NCBI GenBank assembly: GCA_017475265.1
Contig: JAFVFY010000063.1
Coordinates: forward strand, 1-57,283
Origin: Prevotella sp.
GTDB taxonomy: Bacteria; Bacteroidota; Bacteroidia; Bacteroidales; Bacteroidaceae
Length of the DNA stretch: 57,283 nucleotides
Direction of reading: 5' to 3'
Below the pieces are notes generated by a model that was given only the letters and a program-made list of their open reading frames with translations, was not told the origin of the DNA and ran no database searches. Positions 49,152-56,030 of the stretch are shown in pieces. The position numbers were made by a program, and so were the translations under genes. Numbering within the stretch: position 1 is the stretch's first letter; every line of letters begins with the position of its first letter.

Positions 49152-49232
49152 TTCCCACCGTGGGAACGTTCTATTCCCACCGTGGGAACACTTTATTCCC
49201 ACCGTGGGAATGTTCTGTTCCCACCGTGGGAA
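49152..49232. repeat. Four phased 15-bp palindromes TTCCCACCGTGGGAA
   Basis: Perfect copies lie at 49152-49166, 49174-49188, 49196-49210 and 49218-49232, exactly 22 bp apart. Each is a perfect dyad (TTCCCAC-C-GTGGGAA); the spacers vary. The array ends 36 bp before the ATG of the kinase-LRR gene and starts 25 bp after the S9 stop. Confidence 0.92.
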
Positions 49233-49268
49233 TCCTTACTCAGAGACTTTTATGTGGATGTGATAGCC

Positions 49269-50885
49269 ATGGGCAATTATAGAAACAACGGCAATGGCGA
49301 TGAAGAGCCGACATCGGGTTTTGTCATGCCCGACGATATACTATGGTCTGACCAGTTCACGGACTTTTCCGACCTGCCAAGCAAGGGGTACAGTATGCTC
49401 GTGCGGGCGAAGCGGCACGGGCGATGGTGGATGTTGAAAGGTTTGGCCGAGCGTTACAGGCAGGACACCGTCTACCGCGTGCTTTTGCAAAAAGAGTATG
49501 AGATCATTTGCCAGTTGCAACACCCAATGGTCGCTTCGGCATCCTCGCTCGAAGAAGTTGAGGGCCTGGGCCTGTGCATCGTCATGGAGTGGATTGACGG
49601 CATGACGCTCAGGGAATGGCTCGCAAAGGGAAACCACACAAGGAAACAGCGACGGCGAGTGGCCGACATGCTCATGGAAGCTTTGGCCTACGTTCACAGC
49701 CGGCAGACGCAGCACCGCGACCTGAAGCCCTCGAACATCATGCTCACCCACAACGGGCAATACCTGAAACTCATCGACTTTGGACTCTCCGACACCGACA
49801 GCCATGCCATCCTGAAAGCCTCAGCTGGCACCGACGGCTACATGGCTCCCGACGGCCCTTCCGACATCTATTCCCTGGGCTGCATCCTCCGCGAGCTGCG
49901 CACGGGTCGGTCGTCACGGATGGTCGTCCGCAAGTGCTGTGCATCACTTGACCGTCGTTACACCAGCGTGGCAAACATCCAAAGAGACTTGCACCGCTGC
50001 TGGCAGTGGACCCCATGGATGCTCCTCATCGTCTGCTTTGTAATAGTGATGACGGCAATCTATCTCCCACCACTCATCTCCCGCTTTATTGCTCAAAATA
50101 CTGTTCAAGGGGATTTGCAATCCCCGCACTCCGAAGAAATCATCAGCTTTGCAGACAAACATGTAAAGGACATTTGTGTGGCTCATTGGGATACGAATGG
50201 CGATGGCGAGCTGAGCATGGGTGAGGCAGCCGCTGTGAGAAACATTAGCGATGCGTTCGTGGAAACCAGTATTACGTCGTTTGATGAATTCCGCTTCTTC
50301 AGCAGAGTGATATTATTGCCAGAATGGACATCCTTCTGTGGGTGCATGGCCCTCAACTCCATTGTCATTCCTGCTAACTTGACAAGCATTAGCGGCCTCT
50401 CTTTCGCCAACTGTTCCAGTTTGAAAAATATTAGCGTGGACTCGGTTAATACGGTGTATGATTCGCGCTCAGACTGCAACGCTATCATCGAAACCGCCAC
50501 CAACAAGCTCGTAGTAGGCTGCAAAACCTCAAATATCCCTGACGGCATCACAGCCATTGGCAATAGTGCTTTTTGGGGAAGATGGGACATGCAGGAGATG
50601 ACTCTTCCCGAAACAATCACGACAATAGAAAAAGATGCTTTTTCTTGTTGTACCAGTTTGAAGGCCATCACCTTGCCGGCATCGATAAGTGAAATTGGCG
50701 ATAGGGCATTTGTCAGGTGCGATGCCTTGACCAGCGTCCGTTGCTATATGGAGACTCCACCCGCCATCGATAAGGATGCGTTCACCAACCGTGCTAATGC
50801 CACGCTCTACGTTCCGAAGGGTTGCAAGGCGGCCTATGAGGCTGCTGACTACTGGAAAGAGTTCAAGGTAATCAAGGAATTCTAA
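49269..50885 (+). CDS. Membrane Ser/Thr kinase fused to EF-hand and BspA-type LRR domain
   Basis: 538 aa starting MGNYRNNGNGDEEP at 49269; longer frames would run through the palindrome array. Residues 40-245 are a Hanks-type kinase: Lys57 (WWMLKGL), alpha-C Glu76, catalytic HRDLKPSN (149-156), DFG 170-172 and MAPDGPSDIYSLG for the APE/F region. The glycine loop is weak and the C-lobe short, so activity needs testing. A membrane helix lies at about 250-270. Outside it come an EF-hand-like DTNGDGELSMGE (308-319) and LRR_5 repeats (ITAIGNSAFWGRWD, ITTIEKDAFSCC, ISEIGDRAFVRC), ending LYVPKGCKAAYEAADYWKEF. The layout mirrors a receptor kinase with the kinase domain inside. The ligand is unknown. 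Confidence 0.85.
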   Translation: MGNYRNNGNGDEEPTSGFVMPDDILWSDQFTDFSDLPSKGYSMLVRAKRHGRWWMLKGLAERYRQDTVYRVLLQKEYEIICQLQHPMVASASSLEEVEGLGLCIVMEWIDGMTLREWLAKGNHTRKQRRRVADMLMEALAYVHSRQTQHRDLKPSNIMLTHNGQYLKLIDFGLSDTDSHAILKASAGTDGYMAPDGPSDIYSLGCILRELRTGRSSRMVVRKCCASLDRRYTSVANIQRDLHRCWQWTPWMLLIVCFVIVMTAIYLPPLISRFIAQNTVQGDLQSPHSEEIISFADKHVKDICVAHWDTNGDGELSMGEAAAVRNISDAFVETSITSFDEFRFFSRVILLPEWTSFCGCMALNSIVIPANLTSISGLSFANCSSLKNISVDSVNTVYDSRSDCNAIIETATNKLVVGCKTSNIPDGITAIGNSAFWGRWDMQEMTLPETITTIEKDAFSCCTSLKAITLPASISEIGDRAFVRCDALTSVRCYMETPPAIDKDAFTNRANATLYVPKGCKAAYEAADYWKEFKVIKEF

Positions 50886-51454
50886 TCGCAAATCATCACA
50901 CTCACACCGTCGCGCCGCCCTGCCACGTATGTCATGGCAGGCTGTCCCAGATGTACGACGTCATCCAAATAGAGCGGCTCGTGCTGAATCATCAGGTGGC
51001 AGCGGAACGTGTCGCCCACATTCAGTTTCGTGTTCTCGGCCTCCACAATCTCAAAACGGCTGTCACCCAAATGTCTCACCACGATTCTGCGGTCAGGCCG
51101 CCAGGTGATGACAAGTCGCTGGCCGCGCCTCATCCCCTCCGTCGTGATGCCCGACTCGGAGAGGATGCCGCTCTGCACCTCGTCCAGCCCGTCTGCCCGC
51201 GCACAGAAATCCTCATAGTCGTGGAAGCCCACCAACCGTGCCAGTACATCCATTGTGTGCGGACGGGTCTCCACCTCCTCGTTCTTCAAGTACCCCCACA
51301 GCCGCTTTAGCGTCGTCGGCGACAGCCGCTCATGTGTATGCGAAATAATCAGGTCGCTCAGTTCCTCGAAGTCGCGGGCCTCCTTCAGCTGCCGCCCCAT
51401 CATCCGCTCCACCTCCTTTTTCAACAGTTCCTGTTTCTTCTGGCCATCAAGCAT
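50882..51454 (-). CDS. Unknown protein convergent with the kinase gene
   Basis: 190 aa, soluble. The N-terminal half is helical (MLDGQKKQELLKKEVERMMG, then LSPTTLKRLWGYLKNEEVETRPHTMDVLARLVGFHDYEDFCARA). It has a helix-turn-helix-like look with a conserved DYxDFC ending. The C-terminal half is a small beta domain (VITWRPDRRIVVRHLGDSRFEIVEA, FRCHLMIQHEPLYLDD). I recognise the style from Prevotella but no named family. Its stop overlaps the kinase stop by 4 bp on the other strand. A regulatory role with the kinase is possible but unsupported. Confidence 0.7.
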   Translation of the reverse strand: MLDGQKKQELLKKEVERMMGRQLKEARDFEELSDLIISHTHERLSPTTLKRLWGYLKNEEVETRPHTMDVLARLVGFHDYEDFCARADGLDEVQSGILSESGITTEGMRRGQRLVITWRPDRRIVVRHLGDSRFEIVEAENTKLNVGDTFRCHLMIQHEPLYLDDVVHLGQPAMTYVAGRRDGVSVMICD

Positions 51455-51581: not shown

Positions 51582-51703
51582 AGTTGTTCCGTAACCCATT
51601 TTTTGTACCTTTACGGCACACTTGTGCGACTATCGTTATGGAGATTACACGCCTGCCACATTTAGCACGTATGGTGTAAATTTTGGTTCGTAGCGGACGC
51701 CGT

Positions 51704-51769
51704 GAATGTTTTTGGCGACCGCTACGAATGTTTTTGGCGGCCGCTATGAATGTTTTTGGCGGCCGCTAT
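51704..51769 (+). repeat. Three tandem 22-bp repeats (GAATGTTTTTGGCGGCCGCT)
   Basis: Units lie at 51704-51725, 51726-51747 and 51748-51769, with two substitutions in the first. They contain the palindrome GCGGCCGC. The block lies in a gene-free stretch. Confidence 0.9.
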
Positions 51770-51812
51770 GAATTGCGGGGGTACGGCCTTTCTCCCTCGG
51801 AGAACGGCACTC

Positions 51813-51849: not shown

Positions 51850-51918
51850 GTATTGGCGCAAAAGCGGCAGCAAGATACCAACTTTTTTTCCACTTACGCT
51901 GAAAAGGACAGAAAAGGA

Positions 51919-51950
51919 CTTGCGGGAAAGGTCTTTTTGCACTAATTTTG
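51919..51950 (+). promoter_or_regulatory. Possible upstream promoter of the structured leader
   Basis: CTTG (51919-51922) and TAATTTTG (51943-51950) are 20 nt apart; the -33 box has one mismatch. Confidence 0.45.
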
Positions 51951-51979
51951 CCGCCAAAATGAAAAAAACGGCTCACAAT

Positions 51980-52011
51980 GTTGCATCTTTCAAGTAAAAT
52001 GCTTATCTTTG
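51980..52011 (+). promoter_or_regulatory. Promoter of the structured leader / 344-aa protein
   Basis: GTTG (51980-51983, one mismatch to TTTG) and TATCTTTG (52004-52011) are 20 nt apart. Transcription would start near 52018 and leave a leader of about 270 nt before the ATG at 52289. Confidence 0.6.
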
Positions 52012-52272
52012 CCCCGTCATTCCGCAAGGAGTGGCGACATAGAGGAGAGCGATTAAGCTTTGACCCGTCTGAGAACCTGGAAAATTCGAAGTATAAGGGT
52101 GAGAAGTTTGAAAGCTGCTTCTCCTGTAGTAGCATAGTCACAGCGCGCTCCATTATGGAGTCAGTTCACCTATATACTTACAGGTGTGAGCCGATTTTCA
52201 TTCTTACTTATACGGGTATTCCAGGACCTTCAGACTAAGAATGTCGAGAAGGCTCACACTCGTTGTGTTAAC
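52012..52272 (+). ncRNA. Candidate structured RNA leader, family not recognised
   Basis: Hairpin 1 pairs GTCATTCC (52016-52023) with GGAGTGGC (52028-52035) around a GCAA tetraloop, six Watson-Crick and two G-T pairs. Hairpin 2: GAGAAG (52101-52106) with CTTCTC (52118-52123). Hairpin 3: CTCC (52148-52151) with GGAG (52157-52160). A long helix pairs GTGTGAGCC (52184-52192) with GGCTCACAC (52251-52259), enclosing CATTCTTA (52199-52206) with TAAGAATG (52236-52243). CACCT (52167-52171) can instead pair with AGGTG (52182-52186), overlapping the long helix, so two states are possible. The stretch lacks a protein-like frame. It could be a cis-regulatory leader, a separate small RNA, or an RNA partner of the 344-aa protein. 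Confidence 0.5.
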
Positions 52273-52288
52273 AAAAAAATGAACTATT

Positions 52289-53323
52289 ATGTCAGATTAT
52301 CCTTGTATTGTACAATTTCCTCATCCACAAAAGGAACATGAGTTAACAAGTTGCGAGAAAAAAGCCACTCCACTTGTCAAGGAGTGGAATAATGGACAGC
52401 ACCGTAGAAAATTTCTTCGGGCTAAGGGAATGTGCGTTTCAGACAACAACATTTTGTCTGTAGAAAAAGACATACTTTTCTGGGGCGAATGGGAGCCATA
52501 CTCAGAAGTGGAAATACTACAAGGGAACACTAAGAGTCCTAAATCACCAATGTATGTTCACAAGCCATTTCTGAAAGTGAAGAAAAATGGCAATCTGCAC
52601 TACTACATTCATCATCAGCCCAAGGCAATATCTGAAAGCGACAAGGCAAAACTGTCATGTACTGACAGGAGTTGTATTAAAAGCAACAGGTCTAATACCG
52701 ACCCGTTTGTATTCGGCAATTATTTCATTTACAGTTGTTGCAGACAGTTTACGAAAAACAAGGAGAACGGTAACTTTAAGTATTCATCGATGAAGTCGCT
52801 ACAGAAGGGAAGTCTCATTCTGTTTGGCTCTTCATTTTTGAATCCTCAAGGTGAAGATTCCTATTTTGCTCTCGATACGGTTTTCGTGGTAGGCGAGAGC
52901 CGCCTGTTTCATGTCAAGAGCCATGAAAATGACCTCGCAGGCTTTATTCCTCCCTATTATGCTGAGATTATGGGCTATGGAAACTGGGACGGTAATCCAG
53001 AAATGCGTTGCTATCATGGTGCGACAATTGACGACCCCATTAACGGTATGTACAGTTTTGTGCCATGTAAATCATGCAGTAGCGATACACGCAGTTGGGG
53101 CTTTGAGCGCCCCAAACTGCGTGCTTCTATGTTTGAAAGTATTACTGATGGCTCTAAAGACATCATCAATGTTAACTCATCCCGCAACTTTCGGACATTC
53201 GGTGAACGTCGCTGTGCCTTCTTTGACGAAGAAATGGTTTATCAGGTGTGGCAGACTGTCAGGCAACAAGTCATCAATCAAGGCTATGAGATTGGGGTAA
53301 AAGTAAACTTCGAGATACGTTAA
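52289..53323 (+). CDS. Unknown 344-aa protein behind a structured leader
   Basis: Soluble, no signal peptide, low GC compared with the housekeeping genes. Notable segments are KDILFWGEWEPYSEVEIL (near residue 65), VFGNYFIYSCCRQF (near 145), KGSLILFGSSF, the acidic-aromatic AEIMGYGNWDGNPEMRCYHGATIDDP, and a cysteine pair VPCKSCSSDTRSWGFERPKL near residue 260. Several conserved-looking Trp, Cys and His residues suggest an enzyme or nucleic-acid-binding fold, but I recognise no family. The start at 52289 follows an A-rich stretch. The BspA-like gene begins 22 nt after its stop. Single-copy, accessory-looking; function unknown. Confidence 0.75.
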   Translation: MSDYPCIVQFPHPQKEHELTSCEKKATPLVKEWNNGQHRRKFLRAKGMCVSDNNILSVEKDILFWGEWEPYSEVEILQGNTKSPKSPMYVHKPFLKVKKNGNLHYYIHHQPKAISESDKAKLSCTDRSCIKSNRSNTDPFVFGNYFIYSCCRQFTKNKENGNFKYSSMKSLQKGSLILFGSSFLNPQGEDSYFALDTVFVVGESRLFHVKSHENDLAGFIPPYYAEIMGYGNWDGNPEMRCYHGATIDDPINGMYSFVPCKSCSSDTRSWGFERPKLRASMFESITDGSKDIINVNSSRNFRTFGERRCAFFDEEMVYQVWQTVRQQVINQGYEIGVKVNFEIR

Positions 53324-53345: not shown

Positions 53346-56030
53346 ATGAGTCAACTAAAATTATCATTCTTGCTTATTGTGTTCATGAGCATGATAGGCA
53401 CAAAGGGTTTCGCCTACGACATAGCAGTAGCGAATGCAGATGGCAAAACCATCTTTTATGATTTCATCAATAACGGAACAGCTTTGTCCGTCTGCGCAGG
53501 AGTATATTCTGGTAATATAGTTATTCCCGCATCCATCACTTACGACGGAAACACCTATTCAGTGATGACTATTGGATACGGCGCTTTCATTGGTAGCAGC
53601 CCGACCTCCGTCACGATTCCCAACAGCGTAACGAGCATAGGAGAGTATGCTTTCAAGGGTTGCAGCGGCCTGACCTCCGTCACGATTGGCAACAGCGTGA
53701 CGAGCATAGGATACCAGGCTTTCTATGGTTGCAGCAGCCTGACCTCCGTCACGATTCCCAGCAGCGTGACGAGCATAGAACTGGGTGCTTTCGTGAAATG
53801 CATTGGCCTGGCTTCAATTAAAGTAAATAGTGGTAACACTGTGTATGACTCCCGAGACAATTGTAATGCTATCATCAAGACTGGAACAAATGAACTGATT
53901 TTAGGATGCAAGAACACTATTATTCCCAACAGCGTAACGAGCATAGGAGGCAGTGCTTTCTCTGGTTGCAGCAGCCTGACCTCCGTCACCATTCCAAACA
54001 GCGTGACGAGCATAGGAGAGTGGGGTTTCTATGATTGCAGCGGCCTAACCTCAGTCACGATTGGCAACAGCGTGACGAGCATAGGATACGATGCTTTCTT
54101 TGGCTGTAGCGGTCTGACCTCAATTGAAGTAAATAGTGGTAACACAGTGTATGGCTCCCCTTATAATTGTAATGCAATTATCAAAACCGAAACAAACGAA
54201 CTGTTTTTAGGATGCAAGAACACTATTATTCCCAACAGCGTGACAAGCATAGGAGAGCGTGCTTTCGCTGGTTGCAGCGGCCTGACCTCAGTCACGATTC
54301 CCAACAGCGTGACGAGCATAGGAAACTTTGCTTTCTATGGTTGCAGCGGCCTGACCTCCGTCACGATTCCCAACAGCGTGACGAGCATAGGAGACTATGC
54401 TTTCGCTGGTTGCAGCGGCCTGACCTCCGTCACGATTCCCAACAGCGTGACGAGCATAGGAGACGAGGCTTTCAGGAATTGCCGCAGCCTGACCTCCGTT
54501 ACGATTCCCAACAGCGTGACGAGCATAGGAGACTATGCTTTCGAGGGTTGCAGCGGCCTGACCTCCGTACATATATCAGATTTAGCCGCATGGTGTAAAA
54601 TCTCATTTAGTTACAATTCCAATCCCTTATCGTATGCTCACCATCTATATTTAGGGGGCGATGAAATAACTGATCTGGTAATTCCCAACAGCGTGACGAG
54701 CATAGGAGGATATGCTTTCAATGGTTGCAGCGGCCTGACCTCCGTCACGATTCCCAACAGCGTGACGAGCTTAGGAAGCGCTGCTTTCTCAGGTTGCAGC
54801 GGCCTGACCTCCGTCACGATTCCCAACAGCGTGACGACCATAGGAGAGACTGCTTTCTGTAGATGCAGCGGCCTGACCTCCGTCACAATTCCCAACAGCG
54901 TGACGAGCATAGGGGAAATGGCTTTTATGGAATGCAGTGGCCTGACCTCAGTTACGATTCCCAACAGCGTGACAAGCATAGGAGGAGGTACTTTCTCTAA
55001 TTGTAGCGGCCTGACCTCTGTCACGATTCCTAACAGCGTGACGAGCATAGGAGAGGCTGCTTTCGCTGATTGCAGCAGCCTGACCTCCGTCAGGATACCT
55101 AACAGCGTGACGACCATAGGAGACGCTACTTTCTATTATTGCAGCGGCCTGACCTCCGTAATAGTTGAAGCCAGTACACCTGTCATCATCAATCTTTCTG
55201 CATTTTTTGGTTGTTCCGAAGCTACGCTCTACGTTCCCAAGAACAGCAAGTCGACATACGCGGCCGCCAACTACTGGAAGGAGTTCAAAGCCATCAAGGA
55301 GTATCCTGACTGCGACGTGAACCAGGATGGAGACATTGACGTGGTGGATGTGGTAGATATCGCCCGTTACGTGGTAGACACACCAGCCGAGACCTTCGAC
55401 GTGTTTTTAGCCGACCTGAACAGCGACAAGACAGTGAACGTGGCCGATGCTGTGGTGCTGGTGAACGAGATTGCCGGCGACACCAACTGGTCGCGAAGGA
55501 TGAGGGCACCTCAGAGCGAACATAACGACGTGTTGAAGCTGACAGAGAACGATGATAATAGTCTGTCTTGGCACATTGAGGGCAACGGACGCTATACTGC
55601 TTTCCAGTTCGACCTGTACCTGCCCGAAGACGTGGACGTGACACAGATGAGACTGAACAACCAGCGCAAGCAGAAGCACCAGCTATTATATAATAAGGTT
55701 CGCGAGGGACAGTGGCGTGTGGTGGCCTTGTCAACGTCAAATCGCGAGTTTGAGGGTGTAGCAGGAGAACTGCTGAACATCGGGCTCGACGGCTTCGCCA
55801 CCGCCGACGTGCTGATAGACAACATCCACTTCGTGACTGCACAGGGTGCCGACGTGACGTTTGAGCCCATCGGCCTGAGCAAGGACGGCGTGGTGACAGG
55901 AGTGGACTATGTCTCGTCAGAGGTGGACAGTGACGGCTTACAGACTGTCTACAGCCTGAGCGGACAGCGGCTAAACGCCCCGCAAAAGGGCCTGAACATC
56001 ATTGGTGGAAAGAAAGTAATAATTAAGTAG
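53346..56030 (+). CDS. BspA-like LRR surface protein with dockerin and sorting tail
   Basis: 894 aa. A signal peptide (1-23) precedes about 25 LRR_5 (Treponema pallidum/BspA type) repeats of 23 residues (SVTIPNSVTSIGxxAFxGCSGLT), from about 55 to 640. The LRR block is broken by three non-repeat insertions, two of them near-duplicates (VNSGNTVYDS/GSxxNCNAIIKT). A closing LYVPKNSKSTYAAANYWKEF strand resembles the end of the kinase-LRR protein. Dockerin-like EF-hands follow (DVNQDGDIDVVDVVDI, DLNSDKTVNVADAVV), then a beta-sandwich cohesin-like domain (about 730-850) and a C-terminal tail SLSGQRLNAPQKGLNIIGGKKVIIK of the secretion/sorting type. BspA proteins bind host matrix or other bacteria; that role is inferred. 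Confidence 0.9.
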   Translation: MSQLKLSFLLIVFMSMIGTKGFAYDIAVANADGKTIFYDFINNGTALSVCAGVYSGNIVIPASITYDGNTYSVMTIGYGAFIGSSPTSVTIPNSVTSIGEYAFKGCSGLTSVTIGNSVTSIGYQAFYGCSSLTSVTIPSSVTSIELGAFVKCIGLASIKVNSGNTVYDSRDNCNAIIKTGTNELILGCKNTIIPNSVTSIGGSAFSGCSSLTSVTIPNSVTSIGEWGFYDCSGLTSVTIGNSVTSIGYDAFFGCSGLTSIEVNSGNTVYGSPYNCNAIIKTETNELFLGCKNTIIPNSVTSIGERAFAGCSGLTSVTIPNSVTSIGNFAFYGCSGLTSVTIPNSVTSIGDYAFAGCSGLTSVTIPNSVTSIGDEAFRNCRSLTSVTIPNSVTSIGDYAFEGCSGLTSVHISDLAAWCKISFSYNSNPLSYAHHLYLGGDEITDLVIPNSVTSIGGYAFNGCSGLTSVTIPNSVTSLGSAAFSGCSGLTSVTIPNSVTTIGETAFCRCSGLTSVTIPNSVTSIGEMAFMECSGLTSVTIPNSVTSIGGGTFSNCSGLTSVTIPNSVTSIGEAAFADCSSLTSVRIPNSVTTIGDATFYYCSGLTSVIVEASTPVIINLSAFFGCSEATLYVPKNSKSTYAAANYWKEFKAIKEYPDCDVNQDGDIDVVDVVDIARYVVDTPAETFDVFLADLNSDKTVNVADAVVLVNEIAGDTNWSRRMRAPQSEHNDVLKLTENDDNSLSWHIEGNGRYTAFQFDLYLPEDVDVTQMRLNNQRKQKHQLLYNKVREGQWRVVALSTSNREFEGVAGELLNIGLDGFATADVLIDNIHFVTAQGADVTFEPIGLSKDGVVTGVDYVSSEVDSDGLQTVYSLSGQRLNAPQKGLNIIGGKKVIIK

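Follow-up and report, generated by a model that had tools for sequence, protein, structure and literature searches.

The window analyzed here, a stretch of 57,283 nucleotides from Prevotella sp., carries at positions 52012-52288 a leader that is one copy of a large and apparently uncatalogued family of folded RNA leaders; as judged by comparison of its copies, the family occurs in Bacteroidales, often several times per genome, and before very different genes. We think it rather probable that these leaders form an orphan attenuator-type class of cis-regulatory RNA of Bacteroidales, the fold of which would set read-through into the gene or operon behind it. A leader that holds (in its long-range fold) or frees (through the stem P4) a terminator is the best-supported reading, with the direction of control being the one that we infer. 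The elements of the leader are as follows.

52004..52011, + strand: promoter P2, -7 box TATCTTTG, presumed leader start, conserved in alignment A1
52015..52036, + strand: hairpin 1, at the leader 5' end, pairing based on the alignment
52037..52268, + strand: core RNA element, covered by covariance models R1 and R2
52044..52065, + strand: hairpin 2, 88.9% paired, both-sided change at five of seven pairs
52063..52101, + strand: hairpin X, stem 52063-66/52098-101, loop 52067-52097, coevolving in the wider family
52067..52235, + strand: long-range fold (rod), helices a, b and c, then apical helices
52067-73/52229-235, + strand: helix a, part of the long-range fold
52076-82/52219-225, + strand: helix b, CUGGAA with UUCCAG
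52091-97/52207-213, + strand: helix c, part of the long-range fold
52162-69/52186-93, + strand: alternative partner of the P4 5' arm (CAGTTCAC/GTGAGCCG), 85.0% paired in alignment A4
52184..52259, + strand: P4, 52184-92/52251-59, terminator-like stem enclosing Y and excluding part of the rod
52199-206/52236-243, + strand: stem of hairpin Y, loop 52207-52235, 94.1% paired

An earlier note made from the letters of the window had proposed a structured leader between a promoter and an unrecognized gene, and most of what it described was recovered. The leader 52012-52288 folds with a minimum free energy of -89.3 kcal/mol (z -4.17); none of 200 shuffled sequences, at -68.0 (sd 5.1), is as low. The -7 box TATCTTTG lies before the leader at 52004-52011, the ATG is at 52289 and opens a frame of 344 aa, and the two perfect helices of the note, 9 bp outside (GTGTGAGCC/GGCTCACAC, 52184-52192/52251-52259) and 8 bp inside (CATTCTTA/TAAGAATG, 52199-52206/52236-52243), are where it had placed them and form part of the single-sequence minimum-energy fold. 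Its GNRA-capped hairpin is real in the window, where a GCAA cap is present at about 52015-52036, but the cap is not kept across relatives; the sequence of this hairpin 1 varies among copies and its pairing is retained in most. The note was likewise right that there are competing folds, both of which are conserved, but what it took to be the main helix (P4/Y) is the rival stem, and it is the long-range fold that covaries most. A coding leader was considered, as an 86-aa open frame runs from 51978 to 52238 and similar frames are found in several relatives, and was rejected because element lengths vary by amounts other than multiples of three and the ATG of the frame lies upstream of the P2 start.

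Most of the covariation in the alignment sits in the pairing 52067-52097/52207-52235. In alignment A4, which holds 66 of 75 sequences chosen from 95, 36 of the 66 long-range pairs change on both sides, giving 376 such cells against 131 in shuffled columns (0 of 500 shuffles as high, in a control that ignores relatedness), and 91.4% of the cells are paired against 34.5-48.1% in slid controls. This excess of compensatory changes over shuffled columns, for which the earlier note had proposed to search and which lies mostly in the long-range fold, is strong and argues for a conserved structured RNA. Mutual information with APC over the 95 sequences places 52070-52232, 52080-52221 and 52093-97/52207-211 at the top, followed by hairpin 1, 52206-52236 and 52125-27/52180-82; non-pairing columns appear from about rank 16, a sign of shared descent. 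Unconstrained RNAalifold returns one long hairpin, 52067-52235, as the main feature (-105.2, vs -95.9 with the 9+8-bp helix of the earlier note forced), the single-sequence energies for a shorter window stretch being close (-74.6 free vs -73.2 with helices a and c forced). The long-range fold lies below the open-loop X/Y fold in energy in 37 of 37 sequences (mean -72.6 vs -46.4 kcal/mol, in a comparison that leaves out the loop-loop contact of the latter), so that the rival fold would form only with the help of folding kinetics or of a partner.

Within the window's subfamily P4 is 99.7% paired in A4, with one pair switching from A-U to G-C in six sequences, and the hairpin Y pair 52206-52236 is altered on both sides in 26 sequences; the hairpin X stem is paired in just 65.4% of A4, and two of the eight pairs between the P4 5' arm and its alternative partner show both-sided changes. 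For structures with P4 and Y, the numbers of compensating pairs are not above shuffles (7 vs 7.5 and 7 vs 7.7), whereas the compensating cells exceed them (57 vs 31.5 and 55 vs 30.3); subfamily support for the rival fold is thus good, and weaker than that for the long-range fold. Diverged copies repeat the plan of X and Y with mutually complementary loops (a, b, c) plus P4. Swap tests on 37 of 41 script-segmented sequences of the wider family, the other four having failed at helix c, gave coevolution scores of 4.51 for the X stem (2.58 swapped; highest of 200 swaps 3.40), 5.92 for the Y stem (3.16 swapped; highest of 200 swaps 4.13) and 8.68 for P4 (highest of 200 swaps 7.46), relatedness being again ignored by the control. 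The P2 stem (52044-50/52116-23) is weak, with 6.09 vs 5.45 swapped, a highest swap of 5.92 and 57.1% pairing in A4. Since helices a, b and c were placed by complementarity, swap scores are no test of them, and they were tested by the A4 covariation instead. Small stems within both loops, GAAAU/AUUUC-like and RGGY/RCCU-like, are 94.4% and 99.6% paired in A4. Loop pairing and the stems X and Y may be mutually exclusive or may occur together, as a pair of joined four-way junctions; equal lengths of helices a and c, the expectation for such a double crossover, were not found (Spearman 0.12, p 0.47). A closing stem at 52037-41/52264-68, 53.7% paired, is not claimed. Two leaders (L055, L126) carry an interruption of about 27 nt after the long-range fold and before the final P4 arm.

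The position of the RNA relative to promoters and genes is that of a cis-regulatory leader, on the strand of the nearby gene and with its promoter upstream. In the 140 nt before the RNA the motif TAnnTTTG is present in 12 of 14 copies of the window's own genome, 19 of 20 order copies and 92 of 95 subfamily copies (123/129 in total), and between the RNA and the ATG in 0/14, 1/20 and 2/89 (3/123 in total); a same-strand gene follows within 400 nt in 13/14, 18/20 and 79/91 loci (110/125 in total), the copy C115 being counted in both the own-genome set and the set of 95. A U-run marks the 3' end of the RNA in 25 of the 34 own-genome and order copies, a set made up of 33 diverged copies and C115, one of the window's subfamily, against 42 of 340 control windows (Fisher 4.8e-14). 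It is weak in the window's subfamily (18/95) and in the window itself. By a simple heuristic, a signal-like N-terminus is encoded by 51 of 110 first genes vs 62 of 317 upstream genes, a contrast inflated by the regulators and kinases that the upstream control includes.

By BLAST the leader was found in 18 of 149 related genomes, the window's own included. A pattern scan of GTDB yielded 99 stretches, mostly from Prevotella, Prevotellaceae or other Bacteroidales and one from a MAG titled Erysipelothrix, and the scan and earlier loci together gave 95 distinct elements with near-full-length matches, mostly from rumen Prevotella. Model R1, whose training set includes the window copy (E 2.8e-59), finds 14 copies in the own genome at E <= 1e-3 and has matches in 134 of 298 genus genomes, 33 of 295 order genomes (26 of 177 genera) and, in the phylum draw, 1 of 296, the own genome alone; the own genome is included in every R1 and R2 draw, and in draws above 40 genomes just seven or eight candidates were scored per genome. 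Model R2, built from 31 diverged copies, recognizes the window copy, which lies outside its training set, at E 3.4e-27 and recovers four diverged non-training copies (L182, L186, L187, L208) at E 2.8e-8 to 7.7e-12. Of 39 genus genomes, 36 have R2 matches (19 copies in the own genome and up to 13 in the other 38); matches occur also in 128 of 296 order genomes representing 77 of 170 genera, and in 7 of the 40 genomes of a sensitive phylum draw, namely the own genome, 5/9 others of its class and 1/30 others of the phylum, the 29 of 30 other-class genomes without a match doubling as a negative control. Xylanibacter ruminicola D31d and Hoylesella loescheii An865 both carry the family RNA. One exact leader pattern had no match among IMG/VR viral contigs. 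Two family RNAs stand in tandem before one gene run at L195:3498-4066 (- strand).

The genes behind the leader in the window are the following two.

52289..53323, + strand: 344-aa protein, first gene after the leader
53346..56030, + strand: BspA-type LRR protein, second gene of the run, LRR_5 E 2.5e-150

First genes behind the leaders are unrelated to one another. Among 73 scanned out of 92 first ORFs (19 were omitted as very long, cut off, on the opposite strand or doubtful), 11 encode BspA-type LRR_5 proteins and the others belong to many families or to none, compared with 2 LRR_5 and 19 kinase-domain proteins in a control of 73 of 108 upstream genes; the same-strand gene runs behind the leaders reach nine genes, and no common pathway among the downstream genes would name a ligand. 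Six PADLOC models matched among the 73 first genes, two mREase_II models (7 and 2), PD-T4-3 (2), PDC-S48 (2), DpdF (1) and Cas12f (1). The SRA domain of mREase_II is that of the long regulators described below, five of which are among the 73, so that five of the seven are probably regulators, and PADLOC kinase models match 19 of the 73 upstream control genes; given these matches, we do not claim an enrichment of defense functions among first genes. In one locus pair from a one-contig genome (L020 and L024, G045:C1, about 2.2840 and 2.2796 Mb), near-identical leaders with nearly equal promoter regions lie 4.4 kb apart, one preceding a PvuRts1I-like SRA restriction enzyme and the other a different 160-aa protein, which we read as a cargo exchange or duplication behind one leader.

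The 344-aa protein is, as described earlier, without a known family, as searches of Pfam, PHROGs and PADLOC gave no match within the limits applied. The structure prediction suggested for it was of little help, as AlphaFold gave a poor model (mean pLDDT 42.4, four sequences). By BLAST the protein is found in 2 of 149 related genomes and in 4 of 399, own genome included; peptide patterns gave no match in IMG/VR, and a single weak plasmid match was to Synechocystis sp. B12 (31% over 40%). One homologue (L208, genome G304) belongs to an operon that is preceded by a family RNA, whereas none was found within the stretches examined around two others (L209, L210), and the genome that carries L210 (G024) has no R2 match anywhere. 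In L210 (1350-4976) the homologue follows AbiH-like and PDC-S15 genes, suggestive of a 344-aa family that may belong to a defense island, and that of L209 is beside a PDC-S26 gene. The earlier note had foreseen an RNA-regulated system correctly, but its special pairing of the RNA with the 344-aa protein did not hold, as relatives of the leader precede unrelated genes and the leader accompanies homologues of the protein at one locus of three.

Upstream of the leader, the window presents a further set of features.

49182..50885, + strand: Hanks-type kinase with LRR tail, beside the regulator, Pkinase E 1e-27
50882..51454, - strand: short HTH-like regulator (..LSPTTLKRLWGYL..), HTH-like being our own reading
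51901..51919, + strand: tandem GAAAAGGAC repeats upstream of P1, possible operator
51943..51950, + strand: possible distal promoter P1, -7 like TAATTTTG, predicted from sequence
51969..51980, + strand: box 1, CGGCTCACAATG, 35 bp before the -7 box of P2 and complementary to the P4 5' arm

Leaders of the window's subfamily are often accompanied by a regulator gene upstream and by a promoter box that complements the switching arm. Members of the short HTH-like family, for which no Pfam family above cut-off and no NCBIfam match was found, are present in 53 of 95 loci, with 51 members upstream and 6 downstream of the RNA. The box pattern C[A/G]GCTCACAATG upstream of P2 co-occurs with the upstream regulator. 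In the 64 loci for which over 1500 nt of upstream sequence was available, the strict pattern gave 35 loci with both, 15 with neither, 11 with the regulator only and 3 with the box only, and a relaxed pattern, set after the strict result had been seen, gave 43, 13, 3 and 5, respectively (p 2.7e-7). Box 1 moreover covaries with the P4 5' arm (A-T 50, G-C 10, G-T 7, A-C 0; p 7.8e-8), an arm G being found with box C in 7 of 7 cases and with box T in 4 of 60 (p 3.8e-7), in Fisher tests that ignore relatedness. Box 1 may be a site that a protein recognizes in both the promoter and the leader; alternatively, transcripts begun at a promoter farther upstream may carry it as a competing strand. By eye, a P1-like motif recurs in many box-bearing loci, and AAAAGGAC-like or TGGAAC stretches lie upstream of many relatives. 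A longer form of the regulator, in which an HTH-like domain and a hydrophobic stretch are followed by an SRA-like domain, accounts for 7 of 24 regulators in alignment A3. In at least five loci (L037, L065, L079, L091, L099) a long regulator itself comes first after the leader, which suggests feedback. Short tandem repeats, GAATGTTTTTGGCGGCCGCTAT-like, occupy 51700-51770 between the regulator and the leader. Elsewhere in the own genome, a diverged family RNA is preceded at a distance of about 60 nt by a copy of box 1 that has a single mismatch (G000:C42:2184-2196).

The family itself, the conservation of both folds and the cis position come from comparison of the copies; for mutual exclusion of the folds in one molecule, for termination and for switching, what follows is the mechanism that we infer. 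The RNA would start at P2 and fold and, once Y has been made, the loops of X and Y would pair through a, b and c, where helix b may be a kissing interaction of two small hairpins. This long-range fold would keep the P4 5' arm bound to sequence that lies upstream. The rival fold would have stems X and Y closed, and the P4 5' arm would join the last pre-gene segment to form P4, which in most wider-family copies ends in a terminator-like U-run. Some signal would set the balance of the folds and hence read-through into the gene or operon. For an attenuator with an intrinsic terminator, a U-run is found in 25 of the 34 own-genome and order copies vs 18 of 95 in the window's subfamily, and the rival fold is seen by comparison of copies; as P4 of the window's subfamily is without a good U-run, the output there may be pausing or translation. 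More tentatively, we entertain as a possibility a riboswitch-like class in which the large-loop hairpins, pairing through two helices around a kissing contact, would together act as a compact sensor with a double junction. It would report a single signal, perhaps stress of the envelope or from phage, to a regulon of many surface, secreted and defense-like genes across the class Bacteroidia, to which rumen Prevotella would have added a layer of regulator and kinase.

Mixed cargo and same-strand runs of up to nine genes would also be expected of a leader read by a protein rather than by a small molecule, where binding of the HTH-like regulator or of a processive antiterminator to the leader (or to its DNA) lets polymerase pass, as RfaH and LoaP/EAR do in operons of mixed content. 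The presence of the regulator upstream in 43 of the 48 box-bearing loci with enough sequence, the kinases among 19 of 73 upstream genes and the match of box 1 to the P4 arm all fit such a reader. We nevertheless find it somewhat unlikely, since a regulator-like ORF was seen by eye in 4 of 32 stretches of the wider family (L176, L180, L190, L194) and the elaborate covarying core exceeds what protein hairpin sites usually need. The covariation of box and arm with G-U allowed (p 7.8e-8 and 3.8e-7), together with the P1-like motif and repeats seen by eye upstream of the box, would be accounted for by a choice of promoters, transcripts from P1 carrying box 1 and blocking P4 through its 5' arm, those from P2 being without it, and the drive of P1 thereby setting the fold. 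The near-fixed spacing of about 35 bp between box and P2 equally fits a protein site at P2, however, and leaders without the box exist, the box being found mainly in the window's subfamily; we take a switch of this kind to be unlikely.

The remaining alternatives detach the RNA from control of the genes behind it, or tie it to one of them. The U-run in 25 of 34 copies and the rod shape could be those of an independent small RNA that carries its own terminator and precedes genes by chance, an improbable reading given that in 110 of 125 loci a gene on the same strand follows within 400 nt and that just 3 of 123 have a promoter motif between RNA and gene. That similar leaders precede unrelated genes, and that box 1 and the P4 arm form an inverted match, might point to a mobile or recombining DNA element, such as an attC-like site or an invertible promoter, that shuffles cargo genes, yet compensatory RNA pairing, the promoter and the orientation to the gene are conserved and the one pattern searched in IMG/VR had no match, which leaves such an element very improbable. 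Least credible of all is an RNA partner dedicated to the 344-aa protein: the two are adjacent in the window and the operon of the L208 homologue has a family RNA before it, but the leader is found by BLAST in 18 of 149 genomes against 2 of 149 for the protein, no RNA was seen in the stretches read at L209 and L210, and co-occurrence thus fails to speak for such a pair.

The attenuator-type leader that we favor resembles riboswitch and attenuator leaders in extending from promoter to gene, in its rival folds and terminator-like stem and in its loop-loop contact; such contacts are known from the cobalamin and purine riboswitch classes. It differs from these leaders in that the family RNA has no Rfam match in the stretches scanned, in that its two loops of about 30 nt are complementary almost end-to-end and in that its cargo has no common pathway. 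EAR and JUMPstart-ops are leaders for processive antitermination, and share with the family a common leader before operons of mixed content; the family RNA, in contrast, has a much larger covarying fold and, in many copies, a U-run after P4. No Rfam 15 family matches the leader, which fits the novelty supposed earlier: at gathering score there was no match in the window or in 12 own-genome stretches, an E-value scan of window positions 51950-52320 gave none at E <= 10, and E-value scans of 17 of the 20 order loci gave no family overlapping the RNA. Short stretches of L201 and L179 gave only far-sub-threshold matches (e.g. MIR8562, 31.1 of 211 bits, and MCS4, 29.3 of 56).

Unnamed candidate RNAs are reportedly the subject of a study by Fremin and Bhatt from 2021. 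A search of openly licensed PMC papers found no description of such a leader, and passages of PMC8040213, PMC10994844, PMC7366714 and PMC9723704 contain none. The comparative genomics of PMC8040213 gives unnamed candidate RNAs, Bacteroidetes included, and the family RNA could equal one of those in its supplementary lists. If our reading is true, gut and rumen Bacteroidales hold a numerous leader class for which we found no name, ligand or Rfam model, and the class would offer a handle on how LRR surface proteins, lipoproteins and further genes without known function are controlled. A fold with two loops complementary almost end-to-end, each closing its own stem, would also be an unusual test for RNA structure prediction.

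Sub-threshold copies of another cis-regulatory motif, the DUF805b RNA (RF02914), occur near three family members (L203, L202, L193) and never overlap the family RNA, being located 25-61 nt after it in L203 and, in L202 and L193, a long way downstream in front of later genes. We note that the copy directly 3' of the family RNA (L203:3158-3194, - strand) scores 33.5 bits vs a cut-off of 35.6.
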